Shown here: piece by piece, positions 26,013 through 30,540 of the stretch
Position numbering within the stretch: position 1 is the stretch's first letter
How the letters are laid out: each line of letters starts with the position of its first letter
Assembly: GCA_027493375.1 (NCBI GenBank)
Contig: JAPVWO010000135.1
Location: forward strand, 1-33,911
Length of the DNA stretch: 33,911 bases
Direction of reading: 5' to 3'
From: Candidatus Multivorans thiocomprendens
GTDB lineage: Bacteria > Acidobacteriota > Thermoanaerobaculia > Multivoradales > Multivoraceae
Position numbers and translations under genes: made by a program
The notes under the pieces: generated by a model
Database searches by the model: none
What the model saw: only the letters and a program-made list of their open reading frames with translations
Told to the model about the DNA's origin: nothing

Positions 26013-27260
26013 ATGGAGCGGACCAGCATGAGCGTGAATCAGGCCTACGTGCCGCCCCTGCAACTCACCAAGGGGCAGCCGCCGCCCGTCGCCGCGAACG
26101 GAGGCCTGTCCTACATGTCCTTCGACCGGGACGGGGACGCGGGAACCGCGGCGGCGACGGAGGCGACCTTCCGCCAGGTGGCGGAGGGGACGGAGAAGGA
26201 GTTCGCCGACATGCTCGACAACGCCCCTCCAGGGCCGATCGAGACGAAGTGGGGCCCCGGCTTTCGTCGCTACGGGGAGTGCCTCGAGTACATCCGGGCG
26301 AACAACATCGAAGCGCCTGAAGGCGGCTTGGCGCTGCCGCTGCGTTACTCGGCGCGCGAGGAGCCTTCGTACTCGATCGTCTCCTCCAACGCCCTCTGGC
26401 GGGACCCGGCGCGAAGAGCCGACGCGGAAGCGTTGCGCCGGTACGAGCGGGACATCGCGCGCGGATGCCTGTACTTCCCGCACGTGATGCGCGACGCGCG
26501 ACGAATCGAGGAGGTCTGCCCGGGGCTCAGGCCCGACAGCGCCGAGTGCATGGACAGGCTTGGCCTCTCGCTCGGACACTGCGAGTCCAGGTGCGAGAAC
26601 TTCTACGACGCGGCGGAGGTGGAGCGCGTGTTCTACCCGGAGATGGAGAAGCTCCTGCTCGAGTTCTTCCCGGACGCGACGGATGCGTTCGTGTACAACC
26701 ATGACGTGTTCGACAAGGACTACGAGGGAGACCGTACCGAGGATCAGGACAACAAGAACCCCGGTGTGAACGCCAACTACGCCAACCTCGTGCACAACGA
26801 CCTGAACGACAACAGCGGCCGCGTGCGCTGCCGCGAGCTGCTCACCAGGAATCTGCGGAACTTCGGCCGCGAGCAGCACTACACCGAAGAGCAGGCGGAC
26901 GCGAAGATGTCGAGGCGCTTCATGTCGATCAATCTCGCCAAGCCGATGGAGACCGTGCTCCAGAATCCCTTCGTGCTCTGCGCCTGGCCTTCTTTCGCCG
27001 ACCAGCCGTACATCACGAACTACCGCATCTACGATGACCGCGTGGGCGAGACCACCCGCTTCACCTACCGCCCGCACCACGAGTGGTACTGGTTTCCGCA
27101 TCAGACGCCCACCGAGGTGTCGATGCTCAAGTGCTACGACTCCGTCACGGACGGCTCCGTCTCGCGCTGGTCCTTCCACACTGCCTGCATCGACCCGACC
27201 GCGCCCGACGATGCTCCCTGCCGGAGGAACGTCGTGGTCCGGTCCTTCGTCTTCTTCTAG
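26013..27260 (+). CDS. CmcJ/NvfI family (TfdA-like) non-haem iron oxygenase
   Basis: 415 residues. The family core is clear: VHNDLNDNSGRVR with the H-x-D iron pair (His261, Asp263), ETVLQNPFVLCAWPSF (usually VWRP..PLALCD), HHEWYWFPHQTPTEVSMLK, and the distal SFHTACIDPTAPDDAPCRRN (His389) ending in VVVRSFVFF. Homologues include cephamycin CmcJ and fungal NvfI/AsaB, which modify secondary metabolites, but most bacterial members are uncharacterised. This protein has a larger central insert (about residues 100-230, with CESRCEN and KDYEGDRTEDQDNKN) than the usual 270-300-residue form. ATG 26028 (MSVNQAYV), preceded by GGAGCGG, is an alternative start. No biosynthetic cluster surrounds it. Confidence 0.8.
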   Translation: MERTSMSVNQAYVPPLQLTKGQPPPVAANGGLSYMSFDRDGDAGTAAATEATFRQVAEGTEKEFADMLDNAPPGPIETKWGPGFRRYGECLEYIRANNIEAPEGGLALPLRYSAREEPSYSIVSSNALWRDPARRADAEALRRYERDIARGCLYFPHVMRDARRIEEVCPGLRPDSAECMDRLGLSLGHCESRCENFYDAAEVERVFYPEMEKLLLEFFPDATDAFVYNHDVFDKDYEGDRTEDQDNKNPGVNANYANLVHNDLNDNSGRVRCRELLTRNLRNFGREQHYTEEQADAKMSRRFMSINLAKPMETVLQNPFVLCAWPSFADQPYITNYRIYDDRVGETTRFTYRPHHEWYWFPHQTPTEVSMLKCYDSVTDGSVSRWSFHTACIDPTAPDDAPCRRNVVVRSFVFF

Positions 27261-27289: not shown

Positions 27290-28702
27290 CTACTTCGGCT
27301 GCAGCTGCGACAACTGCAGCGTCTGGCGCAACAGGACCCGATTGGCGACGGTCCGCAACTCGATCCGGATCGTCGGGTCGGCCTGGGTCCAGTCGATGTC
27401 CATGTAGCCGAAGTTCGGTTCGCGCGCAGCGCTGCCGACGCGGTGGCGGTTCGGCCCGATGGCGTCCCCGCGCCGGTTGAGCGAGCCGGTCGTGATGTCC
27501 CAGAGCGGATAGGGGAAGTCCGCGTCGAGGCGGGAAATGTCGGACCAGGGCGTGTTGCCGCTGAGCAGAATGACGCCGTTCGCTCCGGTGTTCCGAACGA
27601 GGGCCAGCAGTCGCTGCCGTTCGAGAGGCATGTTGGCCCAGCTCTCCCAGCCGGTGAACTCCATCACGAAGGGGATGCTGGTAACGATCAGCCGCAGGTC
27701 GGCGGGCTCGTGGAGTTCTTCTTCGAGCCAGCGCCACTGTTCCTCGCTGAGCATGCGAGCACGTTGGTGGTCGTTCGGCAGGTAGGGTCCCATGCCCCGC
27801 GCTGCACGGTTTGTCGCCTCGTCCGGCGATACGCGCCACAGTGGTCCCCGGTCGTAGCGGGTGTCGAGCAGAATGACCTGCAGGCGGCGTCCCGGCGGTC
27901 CGAAGCGCTGGGAGGCGTAGATGCCCTGCTGCCGGCGGCGTGGCGACCCGGGAGGCGCCTCCCAGAAATCCAGAAAGAGCTCCTTCGACTCGGCCCGCAT
28001 GGCGAACTCGGCGCCGGCATCCTCGTGGCCGAAGTCCAGGTCGTTCCATGTGGCCAGGAAACGGCTCTGCCGCCGCAACTCGTCGAAGCCCGGCTTGGCC
28101 GCCAGCTTCTCGTACTGGAGACGAAGCTCGAGCATGTCGTCGGTGCCCGCGAGGACGCTGTTGCCGAGCATCAGCATGAGCTGGGGCCTGAGCGCGAGTA
28201 CCGTGTCCCAGGCTGGCTGCGAGCGGTCCTGATCGGCGCCGGAGGCGAAGGCGATGCGGCTGACGACCTCGCGGGTGCGAGTATCGGCGGCCCGGCGTCG
28301 GCGGTGGAGCGACCAGACGAAGGCGCTGAGCGCGTCGAGGTCGCCCTCGTCGAGCTCCATGCCGCCGAGAGGCCACATTTCGTACTTGCCGCCGAAACGG
28401 CGCCCGGCGCCGTGGCGGAAGCCGGTTTCGATCGCCCCGCGAACGGCGGCAAGCGATCCGTCGCCGTGAAGCCACTCTTCGTCGGTAAGGTCGGGACCGC
28501 GGCGGTTGCCCTGACCCTCCCAGTGGTGGCAGACCGGACAGGTGCCGCCCCGGTAGATCACGGCGCCGCGTTCGATGGCGTCCGGGTCGGCAGCGGCGCC
28601 CAGGACGGGGCCGGCCGCCCAGGCGAGGACGACGACGGGGAGGACGCCGAGACGGAGAAACCGGCGCCGGCGGCGCCGGACATCTGACCCGATGCGCGGC
28701 AT
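27290..28702 (-). CDS. Exported cytochrome c-PhoD-like fusion, probable pseudoenzyme
   Basis: 470 residues. A basic N-terminus (RRRRRRFLR) and hydrophobic segment ending near residue 37 form a signal peptide. A single-haem cytochrome c domain follows (CPVCH, 55-59; possible axial Met in MWPLGGM). From residue 148 the chain is a PhoD-like phosphatase (PLALSO PhoD/PF09423 pattern): SRIAFASGADQD, LMLGNSVLAGT, FLATWNDLDFGHEDAGAEF, QVILLDTRYDRGPL, LSGNTPWSDISRL, NFGYMDIDW. Metal ligands expected in family motifs are replaced: SCA to SGA (Gly155), GDN to GNS (181-182), DDHDYG to NDLDFG (220-225), GDRH to GNTP (383-385). The fold is kept, so catalysis by the usual bimetal centre looks impossible. 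A sensing, binding or redox role is inference. A TACATT -10 ends 8 nt upstream. Confidence 0.85.
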   Translation of the reverse strand: MPRIGSDVRRRRRRFLRLGVLPVVVLAWAAGPVLGAAADPDAIERGAVIYRGGTCPVCHHWEGQGNRRGPDLTDEEWLHGDGSLAAVRGAIETGFRHGAGRRFGGKYEMWPLGGMELDEGDLDALSAFVWSLHRRRRAADTRTREVVSRIAFASGADQDRSQPAWDTVLALRPQLMLMLGNSVLAGTDDMLELRLQYEKLAAKPGFDELRRQSRFLATWNDLDFGHEDAGAEFAMRAESKELFLDFWEAPPGSPRRRQQGIYASQRFGPPGRRLQVILLDTRYDRGPLWRVSPDEATNRAARGMGPYLPNDHQRARMLSEEQWRWLEEELHEPADLRLIVTSIPFVMEFTGWESWANMPLERQRLLALVRNTGANGVILLSGNTPWSDISRLDADFPYPLWDITTGSLNRRGDAIGPNRHRVGSAAREPNFGYMDIDWTQADPTIRIELRTVANRVLLRQTLQLSQLQPK

Positions 28703-28818: not shown

Positions 28819-29257
28819 ATGTGTGGGAAGTTCAAGATACCCGAATGGGGCTATGAGGCGCACAACGGCCCGGCCGTCTGGGGGCAGATCGACCCGGTGT
28901 ACCAGGTGTGTTCCCTGGGACGGGAGCAGTCACCGATCGCCTTGAGTTGCGCCCGTCGTGAGAAGCTCGTGCCCGTCGGGTTCGACTACCGGTCGTCGCC
29001 GGCAACCATCGAGAACACCGGGCACTCGATCCAGGTCAACCCGGCTTCCGGCAACGGCATCGTTGTCGACGGAGTGCGATACGAGCTGGAGCAGTTCGAC
29101 TTTCACCACGCCGCCGTGTACGGAAGGCGTCGCCTGGATCGTCCTGACCGAGACGCTGACTCTGTCGGCCGGTCAGATCGAGGCCTTCGCGGCGATCTTC
29201 CCGAACGACTACCGGCCGGTGCAGCCGTTGGGTGAGCGCGTACTCGTTCGCGGTTGA
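28819..29257 (+). pseudogene. Alpha-carbonic anhydrase, internally deleted and frameshifted
   Basis: The first frame (28819 to about 29109) reads an alpha-CA N-terminus: WGYEAHNGPAVWGQIDP, GREQSPIAL, IENTGHSIQVNPASG and YELEQFDFHH. The next recognisable piece is in another frame, 29105-29257: TTPPCTEGVAWIVLTETLTL, then FPNDYRPVQPLGERVLVRG, which is the alpha-CA C-terminus. Roughly 80-100 residues between them are missing, including the third zinc histidine and the catalytic Glu/Thr region. The retained zinc motif also reads FDFHH where FHFH is expected, so one ligand is Asp. The two halves meet at a shared ACCAC (29105-29109). No signal peptide is visible, unlike most bacterial alpha-CAs. Not functional as read. 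Confidence 0.85.
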
Positions 29258-29301: not shown

Positions 29302-30540
29302 CTAGTTTGCGTCGCGGACCAGCCTCAGCATGGCGTCGCTGACCGCGTGGGAGAAGCGCGGGTCGTTGATGTTCGCGTCGACCTCCGTGACAGGCACCGC
29401 ACGCCGCAGATTCTCGCGCAGGGCATGGAACAGCGCGTCGTCGGCGGCCGGGTCGTGGAACGGTCCGCCTGGCGCGGAGAGCGTGGAGACGCCGCCAAGC
29501 GGCAGGTAGACCTCGACCGGGCCGGTAGAGGCGTTGAGTTTGGCGGCGAGGACCTGACCGAGCTCCGCGGACTCCTCGCGCGACGTGCGCATCAGGGTCA
29601 TGTTGTCGCTCTGGTGGTGGAAGGTGCGGCCCGCGAATTCTTCCGGAACGGTGTCCCGGGCGAAGAAGCTGACCATGTCGAGGCAGCCGGGCACGACGAC
29701 GGCGGGCGTGCCGCTCCTGGCCGCCGCCTCCAGTCGCGACGGGCCGGCGGTACGTACGCCGCCGACGAGTTCGTCCGCGCATTCCGTGGTCGTCAGGTCG
29801 AGCACGCCGCGGACGAAACCGGCCTCGATCAGACTCTCCATCGTGCGGCCGCCGGCGCCCGTGGCCTGGAAGATGAGAACCTCGAGTCCCTCGGTCTCCA
29901 GTTGGCGCCGGCAGGCGTCCACGCAGGGGGTGGCGCTCCTGAACGTGGAGGCGGCGATCAGAGGACGGTCGTCGCCGCCTTCGATCTCGACCCTGGCCAT
30001 GGCGCAGATCGCCGCGGCGGCGCGGCTCAGGACCTGGCGGCTGATCCGGTTGATGCCGTCGATGTCGACGATCGACGGCACCATGACGATGTCCTTGACG
30101 CCGACGTAGCCGGAAGCGTCCCCGCCGGCCATGGTGGAGACCATGATCTTGGGTAGGCCGAGGGGCAGCGCGCGCATCGCGGTCGTCGCCATCGCCGTGC
30201 CGGCGCGGCCGCCCAGACCGACGATCGCGTCGAAGCTCTCCCGCCGGTAGCTGCGCCGGACGACCTCCTCGGCGCCGGAGGACATCGCCGCTATCGCGCG
30301 TTTGCGGTCGGCCGCCTGAGCCAGTTGCTCGACCTTCTCGCCGCCGGCGCAGGCGACCTCGCGGCGGCTCACGTCGGGAAGCCAGCTTCCGTCGAGTTCG
30401 GGTTCGCCGAGCACGCCGAGGTCGATGACGAACGCCCGGCAGCCCCGGTCGCGGACGATGCGGTCCACGAGATAGGAGGCTTCGCCGCCCTTCGTGTCGA
30501 GGGTTGCCAGGACGGCGATCGTGCAGGGCGCGTGGGGCAC
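29302..30540 (-). CDS. Tm-1-like / UPF0261 family ATP-binding protein
   Basis: 412 residues from a GTG at 30540. The N-terminal domain starts TIAVLATLDTKGGEASYLVD, the classic Tm-1/UPF0261 opening, and continues FDAIVGLGGRAGTAMATTAM and LGLPKIMVSTMAGGDASGYV. The C-terminal domain has FQATGAGGRTMESLIEAG, VVVPGCLDMVSFF and YLPLGGVSTLSAPGGPFHDP. The plant homologue Tm-1 binds ATP and blocks a viral replicase; bacterial members are mostly uncharacterised and often lie with TIM-barrel partners or small-molecule catabolic genes. No such partner is adjacent here. Length is normal (about 400). It has the best promoter in the window immediately upstream. Confidence 0.9.
   Translation of the reverse strand: MPHAPCTIAVLATLDTKGGEASYLVDRIVRDRGCRAFVIDLGVLGEPELDGSWLPDVSRREVACAGGEKVEQLAQAADRKRAIAAMSSGAEEVVRRSYRRESFDAIVGLGGRAGTAMATTAMRALPLGLPKIMVSTMAGGDASGYVGVKDIVMVPSIVDIDGINRISRQVLSRAAAAICAMARVEIEGGDDRPLIAASTFRSATPCVDACRRQLETEGLEVLIFQATGAGGRTMESLIEAGFVRGVLDLTTTECADELVGGVRTAGPSRLEAAARSGTPAVVVPGCLDMVSFFARDTVPEEFAGRTFHHQSDNMTLMRTSREESAELGQVLAAKLNASTGPVEVYLPLGGVSTLSAPGGPFHDPAADDALFHALRENLRRAVPVTEVDANINDPRFSHAVSDAMLRLVRDAN

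Follow-up and report, generated by a model that had tools for sequence, protein, structure and literature searches.

PhoD is one of the main enzymes of bacterial phosphorus acquisition, and phoD genes in metagenomes are counted as phosphatase capacity. Tat exports many PhoD proteins in the folded state, metals included; c-type cytochromes cross the membrane unfolded, before haem attachment.

The active site of Bacillus subtilis PhoD holds one Fe3+ and two Ca2+ (PMC4223295). Its Fe3+ ligands, the tyrosinate included, match those of purple acid phosphatases, except that Cys180 takes the place of an Asp (PMC4223295). The substitutions C180A, D265A, N271A, N272A and D436A abolished the activity of the enzyme, and D207A and D266A reduced it drastically (PMC4223295). 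We report here on a gene of uncultured Acidobacteriota that joins a cytochrome c to a PhoD-like domain with an altered metal site. No earlier report of PhoD-cytochrome fusions or of PhoD pseudophosphatases was found in the open-access literature.

Results

Architecture of the fused gene and its locus

The window, a stretch of 33,911 nucleotides of Candidatus Multivorans thiocomprendens (contig JAPVWO010000135.1), carries at 27290-28702 on the minus strand an ORF whose 470-residue product comprises an export signal, a class-I cytochrome c domain and a PhoD-like domain:

27290..28702, minus strand: whole fused gene, stop included (ORF, Pfam; orthologues in 20 of the 21 genomes of the genus)
28589..28702, minus strand: export signal region, aa 1-38, with basic N-terminus and hydrophobic core (19 orthologue N-termini)
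28304..28588, minus strand: class-I cytochrome c domain, aa 39-133 (PF00034, E 1.8e-6)
28526..28540, minus strand: haem-attachment motif C55-P-V-C58-H59, invariant in 19/19
28376..28378, minus strand: M109 in EMWP, candidate sixth haem ligand by the class-I cytochrome c pattern, invariant
27293..28264, minus strand: PhoD-like domain, aa 147-470 (PF09423; AF2 model against 2yeq)

An earlier reading of these letters without database searches (the sequence-only reading) had described such a fusion, and Pfam bears it out, both domains scoring above their gathering cut-offs: Cytochrom_C (PF00034) matched residues 43-132 (E 1.8e-6, 29.6 bits against a cut-off of 21.3) and PhoD (PF09423) residues 250-418 (E 4.1e-8, 33.2 bits against 27). 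The region homologous to PhoD is longer than the Pfam match and runs from about residue 147 through the C-terminus. The AF2 model of the fused protein has a pLDDT of 81, with lower values in the signal and in parts of the haem domain. Its top PDB match is 2yeq_A (PhoD; E 3.8e-13), followed by purple acid phosphatases and also by GAP50 of Plasmodium.

Two candidate distal Met residues, M109 and M115, are both invariant in the fused clade, M109 (in EMWP) being the likelier ligand of the haem. As the twin-arginine varies among the 19 orthologue N-termini, we read the export signal as Sec-type. Tat export as a clade-wide trait was considered and rejected, the twin-arginine being unconserved and the loose pattern matching arginine-rich N-termini non-specifically.

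The genes at the locus are, in order, those of a PVC-type haem protein, a UPF0261 protein, an alpha-carbonic anhydrase, the fused protein, a CmcJ/NvfI-like oxidoreductase and an amidohydrolase. This order is conserved in the genus, save that some members are without the CmcJ-like gene or that for carbonic anhydrase. The neighbours at the locus did not suggest a clear partner for the fused protein:

26013..27260, plus strand: CmcJ/NvfI-family oxidoreductase, convergent neighbour (NF041278, E 1.2e-38; synteny)
28819..29235, plus strand: alpha-carbonic anhydrase gene, divergent neighbour, broken (profile match, synteny)
29302..30540, minus strand: UPF0261 gene, conserved neighbour (profile match, synteny)

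The oxidoreductase has no Pfam match; it is 90-97% identical between species and missing from several. The alpha-carbonic anhydrase gene of the window has an internal deletion and a change of frame after QFDFHH, and it is intact, with its zinc-ligand motif, in most relatives, including the near-identical genome G001 (L048).

Replacement of the metal ligands

The equivalence of residues was set by aligning the fused protein through 2YEQ (B. subtilis PhoD). The positions of the Tyr and of the last His, and the N271/N272 register, were inferred from the order of motifs (GDYIY, GDVH, NN/ND) and from the purple-acid-phosphatase comparison in PMC4223295. The motifs quoted in the sequence-only reading, SGA, GNS, NDLDFG and GNTP, are all present in the fused protein, with WNDLDFG at residues 219-225:

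28238..28240, minus strand: G155 (in SGA, 154-156), replacing Fe3+ ligand Cys180 of B. subtilis PhoD
28151..28165, minus strand: GNSVL (180-184) for GDNVY; N181 for ligand Asp207, L184 for the tyrosinate ligand
28019..28048, minus strand: WNDLDFGHED; N220 for Asp265, L222 for His, E227 for Asn271; D221 and D228 kept
27548..27559, minus strand: GNTP (in GNTPW, 382-386); N383 for Asp436, P385 for the conserved His

All 19 intact fused copies have CPVCH, M109, N181, L184, N220, L222, E227 and P385. Position 155 is Gly in 15 copies and Ser in the other 4, and the Fe3+ ligand set Cys, Asp, Tyr, His is thus replaced by Gly/Ser, Asn, Leu, Pro in 19/19. On the calcium side, D221 (equivalent to Asp266) and D228 (Asn/Asp272) are invariant in the clade, the Asp at the N272 position being a variant common in the PhoD family, and Asp265 and Asn271 have given way to Asn and Glu. 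Position 383, the equivalent of Asp436, is Asp in 14 copies, Asn in four (L001, L005, L006 and L012) and His in one. The calcium-side set of catalytic PhoD (D265, D266, N271, N272, D436) is incomplete in the fused clade; the acidic residues D221, D223, E227, D228 and usually D383 remain in the PhoD half. Four positions needed for the activity of B. subtilis PhoD (C180, D207, D265 and N271) are altered in every fused member. Judged by these aligned residues, the Fe3+ site is lost entirely in every fused member, and the calcium side is retained in part.

The earlier statement that all ligands had been lost goes too far: D221 and D228 are invariant and N383 is confined to a sublineage. Two of the three Asp-to-Asn changes on which it was based, N181 and N220, hold clade-wide, and the third, N383, occurs only in the four copies named above. 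The two proposed losses of His (L222, P385) are found in all members, but the His of DDHDYG is not one of the ligands mutated in the PhoD crystal-structure paper (PMC4223295). The replacements of the tyrosinate Tyr by Leu184 and of Asn271 by Glu227 had been overlooked.

The canonical set C-D-Y-D-D-N-(D/N)-D-H occupies the ligand positions in nearly all of 63 non-fused relatives, and the residue set of the fused clade was found in none of these single-domain proteins. Of the 47 columns with a conservation of 90% or more in the 63 relatives, 9 hold metal ligands and 38 do not; the fused clade has replacements in 6 of the former and in 4 of the latter (Fisher p = 0.0013, a value to be taken only as a guide because alignment columns are not fully independent). 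The alignment with relatives that the sequence-only reading had proposed showed the altered residues to be common to the whole clade bearing CxxCH.

Distribution in the genus and selection

The fused gene is present in 20 of the 21 genomes of the host genus and intact in 19, which include the window's own copy and others with 78-99% identity to it. In G018, a clean deletion between the UPF0261 and amidohydrolase genes has taken out the fused and CmcJ-like genes together with much of the gene for carbonic anhydrase. The copy in the draft genome G020 (L112) has residues 1-256 and 344-470 in different frames and lacks about 90 residues in the middle, which may reflect true decay or a fault in the assembly. 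The deletion in G018 and the interrupted copy in G020 indicate that the gene is not essential everywhere.

In Nei-Gojobori pairwise comparisons of the 19 intact copies (median dS about 0.5), dN/dS had a median of 0.08 in the haem domain, 0.19 in the PhoD domain and 0.71 in the signal region; for the canonical PhoD-like paralogue in these genomes it was 0.14. Both domains of the fused clade are under purifying selection, the pattern expected of a maintained function. The haem half evolves more slowly than the PhoD half.

The PhoD half of the window's copy (about 27300-28350) is 98-100% identical to that of L006 (G017), whereas the haem half, the signal and the upstream flank are far more diverged, with a synonymous distance of 0.83 against 0.02 in the PhoD half. 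This contrast points to recombination between species of the genus, with a breakpoint that lies within the fused gene.

A single origin and no fused relatives outside the genus

In a tree of the PhoD half (51 rows), the fused clade is one branch with support 100/100 and a stem length of 0.72. Its sister group consists of single-domain GDTHW-type proteins of Pseudomonadota (L050, L063 and L069; 98/97), a relation less certain than the single origin because some of the joins involve long branches. Descent from the genome's own GDRH-type paralogue (L002) was not supported, as the tree groups the fused clade with the GDTHW-type proteins. The closest single-domain relative by identity, at 48%, is L113, from the same order, and it has the canonical residues.

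Across all genomes searched, matches covering both domains were confined to the host genus. Neither the 51 further genomes searched in the order nor 396 genomes sampled from the phylum had any; there were none among 369 genomes of the class of L069 and 385 of the class of L050, where the best-scoring matches were checked for CxxCH, and none on 72,556 plasmids. A scan by peptide pattern, over 84,980 species genomes, found no fused relative outside the genus; it detects close relatives only, so that a diverged one elsewhere could escape it. No relative combining a cytochrome domain with canonical ligands, the case that would have made the window's copy a decaying gene, was found in the genomes searched; every cytochrome-bearing homologue is altered wherever the residues are readable. 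A pre-fusion state, with a cytochrome gene beside a canonical PhoD-like gene, was also looked for, and no such pair was found.

Altered PhoD-like proteins of other kinds were seen in the same phylum. L087 and L088 (family f42) belong to a subgroup with several copies in one genome and no cytochrome, in which Tyr is replaced by Asp, His by Asn and Asn by Lys; L083 (family f40), a single-domain protein, has His for Tyr and GGRH for GDRH.

Discussion

The residues at the former metal site argue that the fused protein is a maintained pseudoenzyme devoid of iron, a reading to which we give a probability of about 0.8. It had been put forward from one copy, and the 19 intact orthologues, their like substitutions in the core, the purifying selection and the single origin agree with it. 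One might instead see a gene in decay, a chance fusion whose PhoD half is drifting and whose degenerate motifs belong to one copy. The loss of the gene in G018, the interrupted draft copy of G020 and a PhoD half more diverged than its neighbours would fit such a history. However, the replacements N181, L184, N220, L222, E227 and P385 are invariant across 19 intact copies, and the dN/dS of the PhoD half, about 0.19, is near the 0.14 of the canonical paralogue. Selection and invariance largely refute decay, which we regard as very improbable.

The same invariant replacements bear on the idea that the cytochrome alone matters and that its PhoD partner, having neither pocket nor ligand, serves as a structural spacer. 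The better conservation of the cytochrome half (dN/dS 0.08) is in keeping with it, but the replacements are clustered in the motifs of the former active site, where a mere spacer would not need them, and a spacer seems unlikely to us. The protein might also still be an enzyme, with a site for Ca2+ or another divalent metal at D221/E227/D228/D383 performing a slower or different hydrolysis, and the haem serving electron transfer or regulation. The acidic residues that remain leave room for a different metal-dependent activity: D221 and D228 are invariant, E227, which arose from N271, is compatible with Ca2+, and D383 is found in 14 of the 19 copies. Nevertheless, removal of single ligands abolishes the activity of B. 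subtilis PhoD (PMC4223295), six or more positions have changed here, and D383 is also lost in the window's own lineage, which makes an enzyme of this kind rather improbable.

For the maintained pseudoenzyme, the following course is probable. In the ancestor of the genus, the PhoD-like domain lost its Fe3+ site, with the four putative iron ligands, and presumably its PhoD-type phosphatase activity, and selection has kept the domain since. As the loss of single ligands already kills the B. subtilis enzyme, PhoD-type catalysis is probably absent, and the PhoD half would no longer hydrolyse phosphoesters. The host genome also has a canonical PhoD-like paralogue (L002), which could free the fused copy from catalytic duty. 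From what is known of the families, the protein would be exported to the periplasm by Sec and receive its haem covalently, yielding a monohaem, presumably redox-active cytochrome c. Fusion to a cytochrome would force the Sec route and might make the iron site dispensable; this is a guess, since the use of Tat is not universal in the PhoD family (L002 has a lipoprotein-like signal).

The PhoD half may possibly have taken on docking or ligand binding, and so bring the haem to a partner, a role we put forward tentatively; Ca2+ could perhaps still be held at the D221/E227/D228(/D383) cluster. In a more speculative and, to us, doubtful extension, the pocket stripped of iron would be re-used to bind Ca2+, a protein partner or some phosphorylated molecule and so gate or dock electron transfer via the cytochrome c, the metal site might have been lost as a consequence of the fusion itself, and the genus would own a specific class of redox pseudophosphatases.

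It seems that the pseudoenzyme arose together with the domain fusion, and that an old enzyme now serves, without catalysis, as part of a protein that carries electrons. With its iron site erased, its fold under selection and a cytochrome domain joined to it, the PhoD half offers a clean natural experiment on how pseudoenzymes form. Not all PF09423 matches in these organisms should be counted as phosphatases.

The fold of the PhoD half is that of the B. subtilis alkaline phosphatase/phosphodiesterase (2YEQ, PF09423), with homologous motifs in the same order. Unlike in that enzyme, all Fe3+ ligands and several of those on the calcium side are replaced, and the cytochrome c domain stands where B. 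subtilis PhoD has its N-terminal region. The GDTHW-type phosphatases L050 (Alphaproteobacteria), L069 (Paraglaciecola) and L063 (Halieaceae) are 35-43% identical to the PhoD half over the alignment but have no cytochrome domain; L050 and L069 have the canonical ligands, and L063 keeps the Cys, Asp, Tyr and His. The haem domain resembles CcoP-like and small periplasmic class-I cytochromes c in its CxxCH, GPDLTDxEW, M-x-P and C-terminal helix motifs. It is 36-43% identical to the single-domain cytochromes L090-L093 of other Acidobacteriota, which, unlike the fused protein, stand alone, no PhoD-like gene being found within about 1.5 kb of theirs. A related purple-acid-phosphatase fold has a scaffold role in Plasmodium GAP50 (3TGH), a membrane anchor of the glideosome for which phosphatase activity has been reported too (PMC8949495); GAP50 differs from the fused protein in being eukaryotic and in having no haem.
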